A stretch of 64,000 nt of DNA from an uncultured Aquimarina sp. (GTDB lineage: Bacteria > Bacteroidota > Bacteroidia > Flavobacteriales > Flavobacteriaceae). This document shows, in pieces, positions 1 to 31,583 of the stretch (its first letter is position 1; the number at the start of each line of letters is the position of its first letter). The translations under genes were made by a program, and so were the position numbers. The notes under the pieces were generated by a model that saw only the letters and a program-made list of their open reading frames with translations, did no database searches and had not been told where the DNA came from. The DNA lies in the NCBI RefSeq assembly GCF_947495315.1, contig NZ_CANLYD010000019.1, positions 1 through 64,000 on the forward strand, given 5' to 3'.

Positions 1-74
1 ACGCCTTGCCCCTTGCCAACTAACTAGTTAGTTGAGGGCCAAGACGCTGCTGACCGCAGCTCTTGCCCACAACG
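1..74 (+). repeat. Right end of a type-B cassette repeat
   Basis: This is the 3' end of a repeat that recurs, nearly base for base, at 1120-1193 and 3102-3175. It contains the 16-bp palindrome AACTAACTAGTTAGTT and ends in GCTCTTGCCCACAACG directly before the core of the first complete cassette. The left part of this copy lies outside the window, so a further cassette probably precedes it. Confidence 0.85.
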
Positions 75-225
75 TTACCATACATTTCCTACATAAAGAA
101 ACTCTATTAATTTCTTTTGCTAACGTCGACAAAAAAGAATGGAAATTGAGTGATTTTTTAAGGAATTTGACTAAATTTTAAATAACTGAATATCAATATA
201 ATAAATTGACGTTAGTCAGAATTAG

Positions 226-747
226 ATGAAAAAAATTCTATTACTCATGTTACTGATTTCTTTTCTTGGTTACGGTCAAAGAAAAAGGGAAGTAATTGAC
301 AGTATTCACTCTAAAAGATTATGTATTGAATATCCAGGAATAGTGGATATACCTGAGATTTTAAATGAATTTGAAAGATCTGAATATGTATTTACTGGAA
401 AAGTTGTTGAAATTATAAGAAAAGAGACTCTTGAATCATCTGATATTGATGAAAATGGTCCAACTGATTTTCAACCAATCCAAAATTATTGGTATGTATT
501 TGAGGTTTCAGAACTGTTTAAAGGAAAGAATAAAAAACAAATTAAAGTTTTTGCAAGAATTTATAGCAGTACTTCTCCATTATTAATCTTAGATAAAGAA
601 TACTTAGTTTATGCGAAAAAAGTAATTGAACAAGAGAAACGATTTTTGGGACATTCCGACCCTTACATTTATTGTGGAGATAGATCTGGTCATATTAAAT
701 ACGCTGAAAAGGAGATTAATGAATTGAAAAAACTAATTAAAAAATAA
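226..747 (+). CDS. Secreted TIMP/netrin-like domain protein (cassette cargo)
   Basis: A 173-residue protein with an N-terminal signal peptide (hydrophobic stretch about residues 3-15, ending near GYGQ), so exported. The mature part has the pattern seen in bacterial TIMP/NTR-like OB-fold proteins: a YVFTGKVVEI strand near residue 65, a FEVSELFKG strand near 100, YLVYAKK near 130 and CGDRSG near 150. The family assignment rests on pattern only; the cysteines are few (LCIE, YCGD). Its role is unknown. It is the only gene of its cassette, bounded by the inverted cores at 74-83 and 749-758, with a 150-base AT-rich leader that could hold a promoter. Confidence 0.8.
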   Translation: MKKILLLMLLISFLGYGQRKREVIDSIHSKRLCIEYPGIVDIPEILNEFERSEYVFTGKVVEIIRKETLESSDIDENGPTDFQPIQNYWYVFEVSELFKGKNKKQIKVFARIYSSTSPLLILDKEYLVYAKKVIEQEKRFLGHSDPYIYCGDRSGHIKYAEKEINELKKLIKK

Positions 748-758
748 CGTATGGTAAC

Positions 759-917
759 ATCATATATGAAATCAGAGCAAAGTTTAGTGCTGGCTCGAAA
801 AGTCAATTTCTTTTTGCAATGGCGCTAGATTTTTATAAATTAAATAAGAAATAAAAATGCGCAGATAGATCAATTGATTAAGGTGTGCTAGCCTTGCTCC
901 GATTCATATATTTAGCG
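759..917 (+). repeat. Type-A cassette recombination-site-like hairpin
   Basis: The two ends form an imperfect inverted repeat of about 28 bases: the left arm at 763-790 (ATATATGAAATCAGAGCAAA...) pairs with the right arm at 884-914 (...TTGCTCCGATTCATATAT). The imperfect pairing with unpaired bases resembles a folded attC site. The right half recurs at about 3838-3919. It lies between the inverse core of the first cassette and the next GTT core. Confidence 0.6.
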
Positions 918-958
918 TTAAATCTGCAATCTTCGCTTCGCTCGCTTGCAGATTTAAC
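917..958 (+). repeat. Gene-less mini-cassette hairpin
   Basis: A perfect 13-bp inverted repeat, GTTAAATCTGCAA (917-929) and TTGCAGATTTAAC (946-958), encloses 16 bases with no gene. By the rule of this array it is a cassette core and its own inverse core with nothing between them. A near-identical copy is at 2899-2940. It could also act as a factor-independent hairpin, but no T-run follows. Confidence 0.65.
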
Positions 959-1193
959 ATTGTGGGCAAGAGCTGTGATCGGCTCTTCTCGCATATTTAC
1001 ACCTTCTAGGCTACTGCGAAGAGGTTCTGGATACCGATGTTATCGTTGAAATGTTAGGCTTACTTATGGTGGCTCAGCAAAGACAACAGATAACACTAGG
1101 CAAGAAGCAACGGCCAACAACGCCTTGTCCCTTGCCAACTAACTAGTTAGTTGAGGGCCAAGACGCTGCTGACCGCAGCTCTTGCCCACAACG
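959..1193 (+). repeat. Type-B cassette repeat, complete copy 1
   Basis: A 235-base element, visibly richer in GC than its surroundings, with end arms TTGTGGGCAAGAGCTG (960-975) and CAGCTCTTGCCCACAA (1177-1192) that are perfect reverse complements. Near the right end it carries the palindrome AACTAACTAGTTAGTT (1138-1153) flanked by further pairing bases. It is near-identical to 2941-3175; the few differences include GACAACAGATAACACTAG against GACAGCAGATAACAACAG. No reading frame of note crosses it. Confidence 0.75.
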
Positions 1194-1230
1194 TTAGCAA
1201 ACATATAGCGAACGAATCGGGAATTGAATT

Positions 1231-2757
1231 ATGAAAACAAAACTAAATATTCTAATTATTCTTTTTCTTGTAAATATTCAATTACAAGGACAATCAGATA
1301 CTAATTTAATTTTTGATAAAACATTTACTTCGCAAGAATTATCAGAGGATATCGAAGTTCTAAGAACGGGTTTAGAGAAATTACATCCTAGTTTATTTCA
1401 ATATATTGATAAAGAAGAGTTTAATAAATCAATTAATGAGATAAAAAATGAAAGTAGTAACGTAACAAGTTATGGCGAATTTTATAAAAAAATAAGTTCC
1501 GTCATTTCCAAAATAAAATGTCAGCACACTTTGGCAGTTCCTGAATCAGAAGTTTTAAATAGTATTAATAATAAAGGTAAGTTCTTTCCCTTATGGATAA
1601 GGTGGGAATTTGAACCTTTAAATGCTTTTGTAGGTGCAGATTTATCTTTTGACGCTAATCTACTTCCTGGAACAAGGATAATTAGTATTAATGGTCAAAC
1701 CATAGAAGAGATTTATAATTCTTTAATCTCTTGCTTTTCCACCGATGGCAATATACTGACCAATAAACATAGTCGATTGGAAACTGGAGTAGAATTCCAA
1801 TTTTGGTATTACCTCTTAATTAACAGACCAGAAAACTTTATTGTTAAACTAGAGAGTTCGGATGGGAAAATCTTTGAAAAAAACCTCAAGGCTGTAACAT
1901 TTAAGGAATGGACTAAAAATCATAAAAAATATAGAAAGTCGAAGAATTCTAAAATAAGCGCATATATGCGTTATTATATAGACTATGACAAAAAGAACAA
2001 CAAAAATCCAATACGCCATGAGATAATATCTAAAAAAGTAGCCCTTCTTAAAGTTCGAAATTTTGACTCTCATAAATTCACAGAAATCGTTTCTGATGCT
2101 TTCAAGGAATTTGATAAAGAAAAAATTGAGCACCTAATCGTTGATGTAAGAGATAATGGAGGTGGCTCAGACATTCTGGGGCGATATTTGTTCAATTATT
2201 TCATAGATAAACCAACCATTTATTTTGATTCATTATATACGTCGACTGGAATTTCAGACACAACTTTTTTATTTAAGCATACTAACAAGAATATAGAATG
2301 GTATAAATACAATCAAAAACTAGTAAATAAAATGCCTAATGGGAGGTTTGCCACAAAACCAGAAGTAAACGAGGGTTTATTGGTTCAACAACCCAACAGA
2401 CCAAACTTCAAAGGAGAAACATATATTTTAATGAATGGAAGAAGTGCATCTACGACGGCAGAATTCACATCTGCAATGCATATTAATGATTTGGCTATAT
2501 TTATTGGAGAAGAATCTGGAGGTGATTATCACGGCGGGAATGGTGGAGACTTTGCTACTTTAAAATTACCGAATTCGAAAATTGAGGTAAATATTCCTTT
2601 AGTGGATTATGTAATGAACAGCACAGAATCAGAATATATAGGTAGAGGAACAATTCCTGATTATGAAATACGACCAACAATGCAAGACCTTTTAGACCTG
2701 AAAGACGTACAATTGGAATTTGTCTTAAATTTAATAGAAACTAAATCTAAGAACTGA
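1231..2757 (+). CDS. S41 family C-terminal-processing-like peptidase (cassette cargo)
   Basis: A 508-residue exported serine peptidase of family S41. There is a signal peptide (residues 1-20, ending LQGQ). The C-terminal half carries the family's DVRDNGGGSD motif at residues 305-314 and NGRSASTTAEF at 402-412, whose Ser is the expected nucleophile; a weak PDZ-like part (GTRIISINGQ, near 150) precedes it. The length is normal for secreted bacteroidotal S41 enzymes and the reading frame is intact. The substrate is unknown. The ATG lies 38 bases after the cassette core at 1193, and the stop lies 10 bases before the inverse core at 2768, so it fills its cassette exactly. Confidence 0.9.
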   Translation: MKTKLNILIILFLVNIQLQGQSDTNLIFDKTFTSQELSEDIEVLRTGLEKLHPSLFQYIDKEEFNKSINEIKNESSNVTSYGEFYKKISSVISKIKCQHTLAVPESEVLNSINNKGKFFPLWIRWEFEPLNAFVGADLSFDANLLPGTRIISINGQTIEEIYNSLISCFSTDGNILTNKHSRLETGVEFQFWYYLLINRPENFIVKLESSDGKIFEKNLKAVTFKEWTKNHKKYRKSKNSKISAYMRYYIDYDKKNNKNPIRHEIISKKVALLKVRNFDSHKFTEIVSDAFKEFDKEKIEHLIVDVRDNGGGSDILGRYLFNYFIDKPTIYFDSLYTSTGISDTTFLFKHTNKNIEWYKYNQKLVNKMPNGRFATKPEVNEGLLVQQPNRPNFKGETYILMNGRSASTTAEFTSAMHINDLAIFIGEESGGDYHGGNGGDFATLKLPNSKIEVNIPLVDYVMNSTESEYIGRGTIPDYEIRPTMQDLLDLKDVQLEFVLNLIETKSKN

Positions 2758-2777
2758 ATAAAAATACGTTTGCTAAC

Positions 2778-2899
2778 AAAGACGTGTATAATTCATTGCT
2801 AGTTCTGGCATACTTACGAAAATCCTCACGGATTTTCTATTCGGTTTGTATTTGCTAATTTAGTTGCTGAAACACGCAACGAAATCATACACGAACACG
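2778..2899 (+). repeat. Type-C cassette recombination-site-like hairpin
   Basis: The left arm CGTGTATAATTCATTGC (2783-2799) pairs imperfectly with the right arm GCAACGAAATCATACACG (2876-2893). In the middle GAAAATCC (2819-2826) and GGATTTTC (2830-2837) form an inner hairpin. It takes the same place as the type-A site in the first cassette, just after the inverse core, but its sequence differs, as attC sites differ between cassettes. Confidence 0.6.
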
Positions 2900-2940
2900 T
2901 TAAATCTGCAATCTTCGCTTCGCTCACTTGCAGATTTAAC
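2899..2940 (+). repeat. Gene-less mini-cassette hairpin, copy 2
   Basis: Same as 917-958: GTTAAATCTGCAA (2899-2911) and TTGCAGATTTAAC (2928-2940), with a single base change in the loop (CTCACTTG for CTCGCTTG). Confidence 0.65.
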
Positions 2941-3175
2941 GTTGTGGGCAAGAGCTGTGATCGGCTCTTCTCGCATATTTACACCTTCTAGGCTACTGCG
3001 AAGAGGTTCTGGATACCGATGTTATCGTTGAAATGTTAGGCTTACTTATGGTGGCTCAGCAAAGACAGCAGATAACAACAGGCAAGAAGCAACGGCCAAC
3101 AACGCCTTGCCCCTTGCCAACTAACTAGTTAGTTGAGGGCCAAGACGCTGCTGACCGCAGCTCTTGCCCACAACG
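2941..3175 (+). repeat. Type-B cassette repeat, complete copy 2
   Basis: Near-identical to 959-1193, with the same 16-bp perfect end arms and the internal AACTAACTAGTTAGTT palindrome. The mini-cassette and this repeat always occur together, which suggests they moved or were duplicated as one unit. Confidence 0.75.
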
Positions 3176-3201
3176 TTGTAGCACATAATAAGTAATCACA
3201 C

Positions 3202-3792
3202 ATGGATAAAAAATTAACATTAATAATTATTGTAGCATTTACTCTATTAGTTATTGCTTGTACAAAGGGTTTTGATAAAGAAAAAGTCGTGGACAAGACT
3301 GAAAAGGTTATTGAAAACATTAAAATTCTAGAATTAGAAACAAACAATCATTCAATATATACCTCAATTGTAATTAATGCTCCATCAAACGAAGTCTGGC
3401 AGGTTATGACTGATTTTAATACCATGCCAAATTGGAGTAGTACCCTAAAAAAAATCTCTGGAAATTTGACGAATGAAGGAAGAGTTGATGTGACTTATAG
3501 TATTGATGAGAAAGTTAGAATCATCCCACATAATTTTATTTATTCCGAAAATGAGCATTACGGATGGTCGGACACAATACAAGTATTACCAGGAATTATT
3601 GACAGGCATTTATTTCGTATTGAGTCTATAGACAGTATTCACACAAAATTTATCCAATCAGATGAATTTAAAGGTCAAAATAAGAATATTAATACAGTTA
3701 ATTTAGCAAGATATGTTCTTCCGTCATATTTAATTTTCAACAGAGAACTTAAAAAAGAAGTTGAGAGCAGACTTCAAAATTCGAAAAAATAA
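3202..3792 (+). CDS. SRPBCC-fold lipoprotein (cassette cargo)
   Basis: A 196-residue lipoprotein: the signal ends in LVIAC with Cys at residue 20. Residues about 52-180 have the start of the START/SRPBCC ligand-binding fold (SIVINAPSNEVWQVMTDFN, then MPNWSSTLKK), the pattern of polyketide-cyclase-like and bet v 1-like proteins, which bind hydrophobic ligands. The ligand is unknown. The ATG lies 27 bases after the core GTTGTAG at 3175 and the stop 15 bases before the inverse core at 3807, so it is the only gene of its cassette. Confidence 0.85.
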   Translation: MDKKLTLIIIVAFTLLVIACTKGFDKEKVVDKTEKVIENIKILELETNNHSIYTSIVINAPSNEVWQVMTDFNTMPNWSSTLKKISGNLTNEGRVDVTYSIDEKVRIIPHNFIYSENEHYGWSDTIQVLPGIIDRHLFRIESIDSIHTKFIQSDEFKGQNKNINTVNLARYVLPSYLIFNRELKKEVESRLQNSKK

Positions 3793-3816
3793 AACGATAA
3801 GATTACGTACTACAAC

Positions 3817-3919
3817 TATGTATAAGAAACGTTGTAGTCAATTAAACGAGAAATAAAAATACGCAGATAATTCGATTGGTTCAGGTGTACTTGCCTTGCT
3901 CCGATTCATATATTTGGCG
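3817..3919 (+). repeat. Truncated type-A site at the array edge
   Basis: After the inverse core of the third cassette a second GTTGTAG appears at 3831-3837. It is followed by a clear copy of the right half of the type-A repeat (GAAATAAAAATACGCAGATA and CTTGCTCCGATTCATATATT). The left half is missing, so the site cannot fold fully. It ends in GGCG|TTATC at 3919, the core that would open the next cassette. Confidence 0.6.
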
Positions 3920-3948
3920 TTATCTTGCATTTAAAAAATCGAAATGAA

Positions 3949-5349
3949 ATGAACGAAACAAGGCGAGAATATCTCAAACGAATAAATCTCGTCTTGGATT
4001 TTATTGAAAAGAATCTTGATACTGACCTATCACTGAAAAGGCTATCTGAGAAAGCCCACTATTCACCTTACCACTTTCATAGAGTATTTTTAACTGTAGT
4101 TAACGAAAGATTAAACGAATATATCAATAGAAAACGGATTGAGCGTATTGCTTCAATTATACTTATTGAACCAAACATTCCTTTAAAAGATTTAGCTTAT
4201 AAGTACGGCTTCAATAGTGATAATTCTTTTTCACGAGCATTTAAAAAGTACTACGGTGTTAGCCCAACCAAGTTTAAAACTGAAGGAAAAGAATTACTTA
4301 GCAAGATTGGTATAGAACCTTTTTCATCCGAAAAATACATTTGTTCCATTGATAACATTAAACAGTGGATTAAAATGAATACGCAAATAAGAGTAAAAGA
4401 ACTACCAGAGCTAAAGCTTGCCTGTATATCGCATACTGGAGAATTTGATAAAGCTGCTAATATGTTTCAAAGATTGATGGAATGGGGACATCAAAAAAAA
4501 GTATTGGATATTTCGAATTTCAAAGCTATTACTATTTATCACGACAACCCAAATATTACTCAAACCTCAAAATTGAGATTCAGCACTTGTGTAACCATTA
4601 GTGAAAGTGTCAATACGGATGGAGAAATTAGACAAATAGGCTTAAAGAAAGGCATTTATGCTGTTGGGCATTTTGAAATTAAAGCAGAAGAAATTTCAAA
4701 AGCATGGAAAAGTATGTGCACTTGGGTTATTGAAAATGGTTATGAATTTAGAGATGGGGACTATTTTGAAATGTATCATAATGATCATAAAACTCATCCT
4801 GAGCAAAAATTCATATTAGACATTTGTATTCCACTTGAAAAAACAGACAATATTAAACTCGAGGAAACAAGCAATCTAGATTTTTCAGGTACCAAGGCAC
4901 AAAACGGGAAATGCGAAAAAAGATTAGATTATCATCAACTGATAAATTATATGAAAGAATTGAAAGCTTTTTTTCATAAAGAATATGATACTTATTTTAA
5001 ACTTGGAAACGTTTATCAAGGAAATCCTGATTTTTCTTATTTCTCTTTAACAACAGACGAATTGAAAAAACAAAAACTTAAATTTGTTATCATCCTAAAT
5101 CACAAAATGATGTTTTTTTCAATTTGCTTATCTGGTCAAAATAAAAGTATCCGAAAAAAGTATTGGGAAATGTTCAAAGATAGTGATTGGAGTACATATC
5201 ATTTGGCAGAATCAATTAATGATAGTCTGTCAATTATAGACCAAACCATTGTAGAAGAACCTGATTTTAGTAATAAAAGAACTTTAACGGAACTAATTGA
5301 AAAAGAATCATTAAAATTCATAAATGAAATTAAAGACATACTTGAATAA
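3949..5349 (+). CDS. AraC-type regulator with GyrI-like effector domain
   Basis: About 466 residues in three parts: two AraC helix-turn-helix motifs (residues 1-105; LSEKAHYSPYHFHRVF and AYKYGFNSDNSFSRAFK), a GyrI-like small-molecule-binding domain (about 130-305; RVKELPELKLACISHTGEF), and a C-terminal domain of about 150 residues that I do not recognise. AraC-GyrI proteins usually sense drugs or other small hydrophobic molecules. An in-frame TTG at 3925 would lengthen it by 8 residues, but that codon lies inside the cassette core, and MNETRREYLKRIN is the usual family start, so I chose ATG 3949. The core at 3919 has no matching inverse core downstream that I can find. Confidence 0.85.
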   Translation: MNETRREYLKRINLVLDFIEKNLDTDLSLKRLSEKAHYSPYHFHRVFLTVVNERLNEYINRKRIERIASIILIEPNIPLKDLAYKYGFNSDNSFSRAFKKYYGVSPTKFKTEGKELLSKIGIEPFSSEKYICSIDNIKQWIKMNTQIRVKELPELKLACISHTGEFDKAANMFQRLMEWGHQKKVLDISNFKAITIYHDNPNITQTSKLRFSTCVTISESVNTDGEIRQIGLKKGIYAVGHFEIKAEEISKAWKSMCTWVIENGYEFRDGDYFEMYHNDHKTHPEQKFILDICIPLEKTDNIKLEETSNLDFSGTKAQNGKCEKRLDYHQLINYMKELKAFFHKEYDTYFKLGNVYQGNPDFSYFSLTTDELKKQKLKFVIILNHKMMFFSICLSGQNKSIRKKYWEMFKDSDWSTYHLAESINDSLSIIDQTIVEEPDFSNKRTLTELIEKESLKFINEIKDILE

Positions 5350-5352
5350 AAA

Positions 5353-5955
5353 ATGGGGTTGGATTTATCTTTATTAGCCATTCCAAAAGAAGGTGAAATT
5401 ATTTTAAAAAAAGCTGAACTTAAAAAAGGTTCAGAATATAGTGATATCCTATTTTCTCTTCCTCGAGCTTTTGATGATAATTTTACAGATTTTGGTCATC
5501 CCGACTGGATTGAATTCAAGAATGACGCTCGAAATTTGGCTACATATTATCCTGAAAAAAAATTCTTAAAAAAATTCTATATTGATACGATTAGAACATA
5601 CGAAGTTTTTGACTATATATTCGCTAAAATAGAAAATGATGAAAGGAACTTTAAAGAAAGTGAACCGTTCTTTTATGATGGAATAAAATGTGATTACTCT
5701 ATATCAGGACAAGGATATCCTTTAAAATATTGGGATATTGAAATCTTACAAAAGAAAAAAACACTTATAGATTCTCTTAATTTCAAGGAATTTTTCGAAA
5801 ATTATAATTTTCGAAAAATGGTTAATGAAGTTGTATATAAAATTGAGCAAATAAATAATCATCCCGAAAAGATTGAACAGATATTTAATGATGTTAAAAA
5901 GTTTATGGAATATGCTGTTGAATTAGACGGATATGTTTTAGTATTTAAATATTGA
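5353..5955 (+). CDS. Hypothetical cytoplasmic protein
   Basis: A 200-residue protein beginning MGLDLSLLAIP, with no signal peptide or membrane segment. It is rich in Lys, Glu and aromatic residues; I do not recognise a catalytic motif. It starts 3 bases after the stop of the AraC/GyrI gene, so the two are almost certainly co-transcribed and coupled. That makes it a candidate partner or target of the regulator, but nothing in the sequence shows its activity. Confidence 0.8.
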   Translation: MGLDLSLLAIPKEGEIILKKAELKKGSEYSDILFSLPRAFDDNFTDFGHPDWIEFKNDARNLATYYPEKKFLKKFYIDTIRTYEVFDYIFAKIENDERNFKESEPFFYDGIKCDYSISGQGYPLKYWDIEILQKKKTLIDSLNFKEFFENYNFRKMVNEVVYKIEQINNHPEKIEQIFNDVKKFMEYAVELDGYVLVFKY

Positions 5956-6055
5956 TAAAAGGGATCCAAAAGGTTAAAAACTAATTTAACTTACAATTTA
6001 ATCTTTAACTTGTATAAACCCTGTACCTTAATGAACAGCTAAGAAAACAAAAAAT

Positions 6056-29774: not shown

Positions 29775-31583
29775 ATGGAACATTTTATAGTATCTGCACG
29801 TAAATACAGACCCCAAACATTTAAGGATGTTGTGGGTCAACAGGCTATTACCAATACGCTGCTTAATGCTATAGAAAATAACCATCTCGCTCAAGCCTTA
29901 TTATTTACAGGGCCTCGTGGAGTAGGTAAAACGTCTTGTGCGAGAATTTTGGCAAAAACCATCAACCAAGAAGGTCACGAAAATCCAGACGAAGATTTTG
30001 CTTTTAATATATTTGAACTAGATGCTGCTTCTAATAATTCTGTAGATGATATCAGAAGCCTCATTGATCAGGTTCGTATTCCTCCTCAAGTAGGTACTTA
30101 TAAAGTATATATTATTGATGAGGTGCATATGCTCTCTCAAGCGGCCTTTAATGCATTTCTAAAAACATTAGAAGAACCGCCTAAACACGCTATTTTTATT
30201 CTAGCAACCACAGAGAAACATAAAATCATACCAACGATATTATCACGTTGTCAGATTTTTGATTTTAAAAGAATAACTGTTACCGATGCCAAGAATCATC
30301 TAATGCAAGTAGCTGAGCAAGAAGGGATCACTGCTGATGAAGATGCACTACAGATTATTGCTCAAAAAGCTGATGGTGCTATGCGTGATGCTTTATCTAT
30401 TTTTGATAGAGTTGTTAGTTTCAGTGGAAAAAACCTTACCAGACAAGCTGTTACCGAAAATCTTAATGTTTTAGATTACGAAACGTATTTTAAAACTACT
30501 GATTTAATACTTCAAAATAACATTCCTCAGCTATTATTGGAATTTAATGAAATTCTAGCGCAAGGATTTGATGGTCATCACTTTATTGCTGGATTAGCAT
30601 CACATTTTAGAGATTTATTAGTTTGCAAAAATCAGGCAACTATTAACCTTCTTGAAGTTGGAGAACAAACAAAAGCAAAATATCTGGAACAATCACAAAA
30701 ATCTCCTCATCCTTTTCTGATTAAAGGTATTGAACTGGCTAATGATTGTGATCTAAAATACAAAACCAGTCGTAACCAACGACTACTGGTCGAATTATGC
30801 CTAATGCAACTTGCCTCTGTTCTTACTAAAGACGGAGAAAAAAAAAATGACCAACCCTACATAATTCCACCTAATTATTTTAAGGAGAAAGGAATAAAAC
30901 CGATAAAAATTTCTGCAGAGCTTAAAGAAAAAGCTCAAGAAAAAGCAACTCAAAACATTCCTGAAGATGTAACTTCTGCAGAAAACCCTGAAAAATCTGT
31001 TACATCTAATCCAGTAGTTGACCACAAAAAAGAAGAATCGCCATCACAACTTAGCAATTCTCAACAAACAGTTACTATACCCCCTACAGCTACAGAAAGC
31101 AAACCTGCAATACGTAACAGACAGGGTCGAACTTCTGGTTTATCACTTAACAGTATTCGAAAGAAGAAGGAACATGAAGAGAAAAAAGTAGATACGATTG
31201 TTGACCCAAAAAATCTTCCAAGTGATACGTTTACAGAAGCTGAAATGCAGGCTGGTTGGGAAGAATATGGTAAAATGCAGGACAAAAAAGGAGAACGGAT
31301 TATCGGGTCTATGTTCGCGATGAATATTCCGACGCTTACAGATGGTAAAATTCATTTAGAATTACCTAATCAATCTATGAAAGTTGATATGGAAAGTGCA
31401 CTTCCTGGCTTATTTCAGTTTTTGTATAAAAAGTTGAACAATTACAGTGTTGCGCTTGACATAACAGTAAATGAAGAAGCTTCAAAAAAATATGCATTTA
31501 CACCGCAGGATAAATACGAAAAACTACGCGAGAAAAATCCTCTTATAGATAAGCTACGTTCTGATTTTGATTTGGATATTTAA
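29775..31583 (+). CDS. dnaX: DNA polymerase III subunit gamma/tau
   Basis: A 602-residue clamp-loader ATPase. P-loop LLFTGPRGVGKTSCA at about residues 42-56, DEVHMLSQAAFNAFLKTLEEPP near 115 (Walker B and switch) and STILSRCQIFDFKR with the arginine finger near 155, then the collar and a low-complexity linker (about 375-475), and a C-terminal tau-like part. The four zinc-binding Cys normally placed between the P-loop and LDAASNN are missing: the segment reads TINQEGHENPDEDFAF. A slippery A-run is visible at 30838-30846, but I cannot show that it frameshifts. Confidence 0.95.
   Translation: MEHFIVSARKYRPQTFKDVVGQQAITNTLLNAIENNHLAQALLFTGPRGVGKTSCARILAKTINQEGHENPDEDFAFNIFELDAASNNSVDDIRSLIDQVRIPPQVGTYKVYIIDEVHMLSQAAFNAFLKTLEEPPKHAIFILATTEKHKIIPTILSRCQIFDFKRITVTDAKNHLMQVAEQEGITADEDALQIIAQKADGAMRDALSIFDRVVSFSGKNLTRQAVTENLNVLDYETYFKTTDLILQNNIPQLLLEFNEILAQGFDGHHFIAGLASHFRDLLVCKNQATINLLEVGEQTKAKYLEQSQKSPHPFLIKGIELANDCDLKYKTSRNQRLLVELCLMQLASVLTKDGEKKNDQPYIIPPNYFKEKGIKPIKISAELKEKAQEKATQNIPEDVTSAENPEKSVTSNPVVDHKKEESPSQLSNSQQTVTIPPTATESKPAIRNRQGRTSGLSLNSIRKKKEHEEKKVDTIVDPKNLPSDTFTEAEMQAGWEEYGKMQDKKGERIIGSMFAMNIPTLTDGKIHLELPNQSMKVDMESALPGLFQFLYKKLNNYSVALDITVNEEASKKYAFTPQDKYEKLREKNPLIDKLRSDFDLDI

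Follow-up and report, generated by a model that had tools for sequence, protein, structure and literature searches.

The DNA considered here comprises 64,000 nucleotides (nt) of an uncultured Aquimarina sp. (assembly GCF_947495315.1, contig NZ_CANLYD010000019.1, positions 1 to 64,000 of the forward strand) and is called the window in the following. It corresponds to the initial 64 kb of contig C19 in a genome of 6.5 Mb in 72 contigs and starts at the contig start inside a repeat. Direct reading of positions 1-6000 and a scan for own-core pairs revealed an array of five head-to-tail cassettes at positions 74-3918. Each of them begins with a core consisting of GTT and seven further bases and closes with an inverse core that is the reverse complement of this core; the agreement is 10/10 in four cassettes and 9/10 in one. 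Integron-like cassettes with this pairing of core and own inverse core had been proposed in an earlier note on this DNA, which counted the three gene-bearing ones, and the proposal holds for all five. Cassettes 1-4 are followed by hairpin sites and the fifth by a degenerate site. Three cassettes bear a gene, and the other two are one 42-nt cassette without an open reading frame (ORF) and its 234-nt site, present in duplicate. The array consists of the following features:

1-73, plus strand: 3' end of a 234-nt-type recombination site, truncated by the contig start; repeat of 1120-1192 and 3102-3174, with a 100% match to query positions 165-240
74-758, plus strand: cassette 1, core GTTACCATAC; ORF 226-747, 173 amino acids (aa); inverse core 749-758 (10/10)
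759-916, plus strand: 158-nt site of cassette 1, belonging to the most frequent class
917-958, plus strand: ORF-less 42-nt cassette, core GTTAAATCTGC; inverse core 949-958 (10/10)
959-1192, plus strand: 234-nt site of the ORF-less cassette
1193-2777, plus strand: cassette 3, core GTTAGCAAAC; ORF 1231-2757, 508 aa, S41 peptidase; inverse core 2768-2777 (10/10)
2778-2898, plus strand: site of cassette 3, 121 nt
2899-2940, plus strand: ORF-less 42-nt cassette, second copy; inverse core 2931-2940 (10/10)
2941-3174, plus strand: 234-nt site, second copy in the window
3175-3816, plus strand: cassette 5, core GTTGTAGCAC; ORF 3202-3792, 196 aa, Polyketide_cyc2; inverse core 3807-3816 (9/10)
3817-3918, plus strand: degenerate last site, its right part belonging to the 158-nt class; the array terminates at GTT 3919

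The sites at 759-916, 959-1192, 2778-2898, and 2941-3174 form a hairpin on at least one strand, and for 2778-2898 arm pairing is restricted to the bottom strand. The last site is a degenerate hybrid with a left arm that is not complementary to its right arm. Positions 1-4000 contain four linked cassettes versus a mean of 0.03 in 300 dinucleotide shuffles, seven of which had at least one linked cassette, with a maximum of three. In the rest of the window (58 kb), neither strand contained a linked cassette. The array seems to end at position 3919 because no inverse core was found within about 10 kb for the core located there. Hairpins alone are not specific, since a simple hairpin scan of the remaining 58 kb returned eight matches on the plus strand and seven on the other strand. 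A scan of positions 1-6000 against Rfam yielded two chance-level matches below the gathering scores and no attC-like family. The 173-aa protein of cassette 1 has a signal-like start (by eye) and matches no Pfam family above cut-off, and the 196-aa protein of cassette 5 has a lipoprotein-like start (by eye). For cassette 3, a 79% relative exists in another species, where it is flanked by other neighbours. An origin of cassette 1 as a duplicate of a cassette on contig C31 was considered and rejected; the core is identical, but the similarity is confined to the site.

For the analysis of cores across arrays, sites were located by hairpin similarity alone, with the inverse core and the next core excluded in order to limit circularity. 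The search seeds were cassettes with matching cores, and the rows tested were all intervals between neighbouring sites found later. A chain search with loose criteria produced long false chains in ordinary sequence, which are strand-symmetric by construction, and a chain of 19 in the window; it is not used as evidence, and its matching steps seeded the later site searches indirectly. In a first set consisting of five arrays of the same genome and 17 loci of relatives, 135 of 159 cassettes matched their own core in at least 8/10 positions (77 at 10/10, 51 at 9/10, and 7 at 8/10). With wrong core partners, all seven variable bases agreed in 0.46% of 25,122 pairings, and the inverse core of a site agreed with the core on its right in 2 of 183 cases. 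Addition of 20 loci from relatives and nine regions of the same genome extended the set to 406 sites and 316 cassettes, of which 249 matched at this level; random pairing gave 10/10 in 0.4%. Since 33 of the 406 sites had been entered on both strands, the count was repeated with the main strand of each locus only and amounted to 246/308. Thus, cassettes start with bases complementary to their own inverse core, as in integrons, and a lack of co-variation between cores and cargo, which the earlier note had named as grounds for abandoning the cassette interpretation, was not observed. The longest ORF lies in sense direction in 213 of the 249 cassettes and in antisense direction in 5, while 31 have none. 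The GTTRRRY consensus is fitted by 16 of 219 distinct cores.

In the same genome, an array on contig C23 is located immediately downstream of a gene encoding a tyrosine recombinase of 397 aa. The first cassette begins 48 nt past the stop codon of this gene and is followed by more than 20 further cassettes. The array of the window had originally been regarded as lacking an integrase, with no IntI nearby, which is correct for the contig of the window but not for the genome, where this recombinase heads the C23 array. A DNA search with the 234-nt site found 11 full and 5 partial copies in the genome, four of the partial ones at contig ends; a search with the last site of the window gave 28 matches, which mostly concern its right part, and several lie on C23 behind the recombinase. 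Because contigs break at the repeats, the window array possibly belongs to the recombinase-bearing region on C23.

Relatives of this recombinase were examined in named genomes, using the best 80 of 578 loci, 38 of which have at least 3 kb of downstream sequence. A search for a shared recombinase had been suggested in the earlier note, and such relatives indeed precede arrays: a linked cassette pair is present downstream of the recombinase in 29 of these 38 loci, with 113 cassette links downstream and 1 upstream. Over the best 80 loci, 114 links are on the strand of the recombinase and none on the opposite strand. By title, these 80 loci are mostly from Bacteroidota (Flavobacteriales, Cytophagales, Bacteroidales, and others), with one from Halonatronum, and the closest named relative among them is from Aquimarina algiphila (72%).

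A putative attI site is found in 51 of 103 recombinases, in which an own-core start lies at most 160 nt past the stop codon, a few of these starts being chance-like. In 25 of the 51, an inverted repeat with arms of at least 7 nt is located between stop codon and core start. The palindrome of the putative attI is about 18-32 nt long in many cases and, by eye, differs between recombinase lineages. In one genome (G020) with two near-identical recombinase copies (L089 and L118), the putative attI sites are alike except for one base, and the sequences diverge from GTT onward. These features are those expected of an attI with differing first cassettes, namely a fixed position beside the recombinase and differing sequence behind GTT. 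The ORF-less cassette and its site form a mini-cassette of 276 nt (window positions 917-1192 and 2899-3174), which also occurs on contigs C1, C4, C16, C23, and C31. Its site is 98-100% identical among the 11 full copies of the genome, and on C23 the mini-cassette stands first behind the putative attI. A 24-mer of it is absent from the loci of other genomes examined. It may carry a promoter or be a selfish unit.

The best NCBIfam match of the recombinase is NF040815 (recomb_XerA_Arch; 221.9 bits versus a cut-off of 220), which is described as 'site-specific tyrosine recombinase/integron integrase'. The IntI model TIGR02249 reached 188.9 bits in two stretches and remained below its cut-off of 265. 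The IntI-specific insert (I2 region) of about 45 alignment columns is filled in 11 IntI proteins and almost empty in 28 aligned recombinases of the kind described here, 10 of which were displayed. In a quick tree with flagged long branches, the 11 IntI proteins are on one side of a branch with a support of 99 in the Shimodaira-Hasegawa-like approximate likelihood ratio test (SH-aLRT), and 43 recombinases of this kind form a separate group (98). Four recombinases (L107, L203, L209, and L210) are placed outside the 43-member group, and at least three of them have arrays. By sequence, the recombinase is thus not a canonical IntI, as it lacks the IntI insert and groups apart from the 11 IntI proteins. 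A sister relation to IntI was also considered and has no clear support in the tree. Six residues are invariant in the 28 sequences and are candidates for the catalytic R-K-H-R-H-Y set. A model of the full recombinase has a predicted local distance difference test score (pLDDT) of 84.7 and a predicted template modelling score (pTM) of 0.58, and its two best structural matches are about equal, one being the integron recombinase 2a3v and the other XerA 5hxy.

The usual domains of the recombinase begin after an N-terminal stretch of about 100 residues, of which residues 1 to about 78 are not covered by aligned Xer chains. The first 88 residues modelled alone gave a pLDDT of 86. The top Foldseek matches of this model are weak (XPB with E 0.19 and 0.22, MutSbeta with 0.42, and the HARP domain of SMARCAL1, 4o66, with 0.47). 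In a second structural alignment, XPB chains lead with Z 6.2, HARP has a Z of 3.9, and all chains are below Z 8. A sequence-profile search of the domain against the PDB gave nothing below E 0.4, and PF07443 (HARP) was detected below cut-off in 2 of 28 recombinases, with a best E of 0.0011, and in 0 of 24 N-terminal pieces. HARP/XPB-type folds read junctions of single- and double-stranded DNA or distorted DNA. The N-terminal domain may read the folded site.

Most sites belong to distinct length classes of about 54, 118, 157 (158), 181, and 234 nt, each with its own loop sequence, and the 54-, 118-, 157-, and 181-nt classes have a common mismatch pattern in the L box. Core positions were analysed in 126 distinct cassettes selected at a match of at least 8/10, a selection that biases positions 1-10 only. 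Position 11 is an A in 124 of the 126 and is an unpaired A in 121 (95 A:C, 19 A:A, and 7 A:G); positions 12 and 13 are paired again in 92% and 79%. The commonest mismatch in the L stem is a left-arm A facing a right-arm C (454 cases), which ranks first in all classes but the 234-nt class, where it ties at 2. An A.C mismatch on the top strand, corresponding to a G.T wobble on the bottom strand, outnumbers the reverse by 485 to 99 in the L stem and by 206 to 10 in the R stem, and in predicted folding of the circular form the bottom strand is more stable in 221 of 245 cases; related sites are counted separately in these figures, which do not constitute a significance test. An extra base in the left arm, comparable to the classical extrahelical bases (PMC2727003, excerpt), is a regular feature of the 157-nt class only, where 122 of 130 sites have it; in the 54-, 118-, and 181-nt classes it occurs in a minority. 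By predicted folding, the strand-asymmetric sites resemble attC sites folded on the bottom strand.

Movement of whole cassettes is indicated by near-identical units in different genomes. One gene-bearing cassette is identical at 992/993 bases between G001 and G002 and another one at 725/726 bases between G014 and G032. In both cases the cassettes are in different species among unrelated neighbours and end at GTT. On the left, 0 and 2 extra bases agree beyond the cassettes, and on the right only the next GTT. The identity of the 4.5-kb rpoB region is 97.4% for G001/G002 and 90.2% for G014/G032. Tandem near-copies exist in G026 (about 99%) and G004 (98%), and a cassette of the Aquimarina genome under study (C31:8922-9579) is about 91% identical over its full length to a cassette of G002, with differing neighbours. 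These near-identical units in different surroundings, bounded at G/TT, provide the exchange at G|TT on which the earlier note had made the cassette interpretation depend. They are evidence of past exchange rather than of the enzyme behind it.

For comparison with known integrons, 198 genomes drawn from the phylum were searched with TIGR02249 above cut-off. An IntI gene is present in 57 of them and in none from the family of the window. Thirteen IntI stretches were fetched; chains of at least five are present in three of these, and none in the other ten. With two detectors applied earlier in this control, no canonical cassette was found. The control consists of 20 cassettes chosen for an exact 7/7 own-core match, 4 of 24 printed steps having been dropped by eye as chance. 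Positions 8-10 pair in 85-100% of these cassettes, and 4 of the 20 fit GTTRRRY, so that the non-canonical cores lose the weight they had been given in the earlier note. Position 11 has mixed bases in the control and pairs in 60%, and the near-invariant unpaired A is not shared. A long core deviating from GTTRRRY as a special property of the present system is rejected by this control. Since long cores that mostly deviate from GTTRRRY are found in IntI arrays of the phylum as well, the core consensus is not the novelty, which consists in the recombinase and the fine structure of the sites. The earlier suggestion that the phylum may have a cassette system not yet described comes close to the present finding, except that the core consensus is not its new part.

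With integrons, the arrays share single-gene cassettes on one strand, pairing of core and own inverse core, the G/TT boundary, hairpin sites biased to the bottom strand, an attI beside the recombinase, and whole cassettes in different surroundings; the long own-core stem of about 10 nt is shared with IntI-linked arrays of the same phylum. In contrast to integrons, the recombinase lacks the IntI insert, is placed outside the group of 11 IntI proteins and has an extra N-terminal domain, the array is downstream of and co-directional with its gene, the putative attI contains a palindrome in many cases, and an unpaired A is present at core position 11. With XerA, XerC, XerD, and XerH, the recombinase shares the best NCBIfam match and XerA 5hxy among the two best structures, but it heads cassette arrays, and its N-terminal part is outside the Xer alignment. 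For 'integron-like' simple tyrosine recombinases, the excerpt of PMC8138268 describes no Bacteroidota arrays, sites, or cassettes of insert-less members. CTXphi, according to an excerpt of PMC4792948, also has a folded single-stranded substrate and uses a recombinase without the I2 helix; in contrast, it has no recombinase of its own, and cassette arrays are not part of the description in that excerpt. IntegronFinder recognises the integrase by profile, and an extra domain makes IntI easily distinguished; version 2 names one complete integron in Bacteroidetes, that of Salinibacter ruber (both from an excerpt of PMC9024848). In the portions of the open-licence PMC literature covered (preprints excluded), no account of such arrays or of an insert-less recombinase heading them was found.

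Taken together, the arrays are best interpreted as an integron-like cassette platform with an Xer-like recombinase without the IntI insert as its probable mover, to which a probability of about 0.83 is assigned. In anatomy and history it works like an integron, but it falls outside the customary IntI-based definition, since a test for the insert showed that it is missing. From its position before the arrays, we strongly infer that the neighbouring recombinase would do the moving; recombination itself, the strand used, a circular intermediate, and a role of the N-terminal domain are also inferred. A cassette consists of one gene or none and a hairpin site; in its circular form, base pairing between its first 10-13 bases and its own inverse core would complete the stem of the site. 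Exchange by the recombinase would then involve a single strand at the G/TT boundary, with the folded bottom strand as the probable substrate. Insertion would take place at the palindromic attI about 50 nt past the stop codon of the recombinase, and cassettes would be removed through exchange between two sites. The extra N-terminal domain may recognise the hairpin.

Several observations weigh against this interpretation. The recombinase gene is on another contig than the window, 9 of the 38 loci have no linked cassette downstream, a relative on a Persicobacter plasmid is without a linked cassette, and for the two recombinase copies of G020 no own inverse core of the first cassette was found within 3.5 kb. 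Of the 316 delimited intervals, 67 are below 8/10, be it due to missed or degenerate sites or because they are no cassettes. Seven of 33 genomes of the genus are without a recombinase match at 1e-30, though all 33 have a site, and at the order level G044, G046, and G052 have one or two site matches and no recombinase match at this threshold. The fold matches of the N-terminal domain are weak (best E 0.19, best Z 6.2).

The cassettes could instead be ordinary ones, i.e., clusters of attC sites lacking integrases (CALIN), that are moved by a true IntI located elsewhere or lost, with the Xer-like neighbour being incidental. The long own-core stems in IntI-linked arrays of the phylum are similar, and an excerpt of PMC9892861 reports a CALIN in a Polaribacter phage, one attC site of which, possibly among the own-core units described below, was recombined by IntI1 with attI1. 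This explanation is nevertheless improbable, given that no IntI match at 1e-40 was found in the genome (10 of 19 first-look candidates scored), that the recombinase adjoining the C23 array is the Xer-like one, that none of the sampled genomes with IntI above cut-off belongs to the family, and that arrays are located behind the Xer-like gene in many genera. Mobile elements exploiting Xer through folded single strands are known from CTXphi (PMC4792948, excerpt), and the recombinase is itself Xer-related, so the chromosomal XerC/XerD pair might move the cassettes while the neighbouring gene has another role, e.g., resolving arrays. There is little chance of this, since the gene is fixed just ahead of the first cassette and the attI palindromes vary (by eye) with its lineage.

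Least credible are static hairpin repeats, similar to repetitive extragenic palindromic (REP) sequences or miniature inverted-repeat transposable elements (MITEs), that have spread around genes and whose cores match through gene conversion within the unit. Several site classes are in fact repetitive, and the genome contains 11 full, near-identical copies of the 276-nt unit, but whole gene-bearing units with GTT at their ends are almost the same in different species despite unrelated flanks, the seven variable core bases match within units and rarely between them, and the units lie on one side only, behind the recombinase.

Beyond the cassette platform, a wider view is put forward tentatively and at somewhat less than even odds. 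According to this view, the arrays represent a second integron lineage in which an I2-less Xer-like recombinase would recombine folded single-stranded sites, an ability gained independently of IntI or earlier than the IntI insert. The HARP/XPB-like domain and the G.T wobbles of the bottom strand would replace I2 and the extrahelical bases, and the lineage would have spread through Bacteroidia and maybe into one further phylum or more. An excerpt of PMC4792948 discusses how integrons arose from Xer recombinases in terms of a gain of an I2-like domain. If the interpretation as an integron-like platform is correct, this origin could be tested in a living I2-less system, and a large class of Bacteroidota integrons with their cargo has been overlooked. 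The arrays may represent a second way of running an integron.

Within the genus, a recombinase match of at least 59% identity is present in 22 of 33 genomes, some of the matches being broken or cut by contig ends, and any match at 1e-30 in 26. With the covariance model of the 54-nt class, at least one site was found in all 33 genomes and, at the order level, in 6 of 23. A restriction of sites to recombinase-bearing genomes is not supported within the genus. The genus members G002, G004, G011, G012, and G023 have site matches and no recombinase match at 1e-30; an own-core match of at least 9/10 was counted in 10/23, 13/21, 1/4, and 0/2 cases in the first four of these. Outside Bacteroidota, the locus of Halonatronum saccharophilum (L212) has a recombinase relative and a palindrome with 16-bp arms, behind which a cassette-like start but no linked cassettes are found. 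The lytic marine Polaribacter phage P12002L (L245) carries own-core units with an A at position 11 at positions 30952, 39242, and 40552, and a looser pair scan gave further chance-like pairs on both strands. Directly behind the array of the window, positions 3949-5349 encode an AraC-type regulator with GyrI-like/Cass2 and DUF7000 domains that is in no recognisable cassette; Pfam describes Cass2 as an 'integron-associated effector binding protein'.

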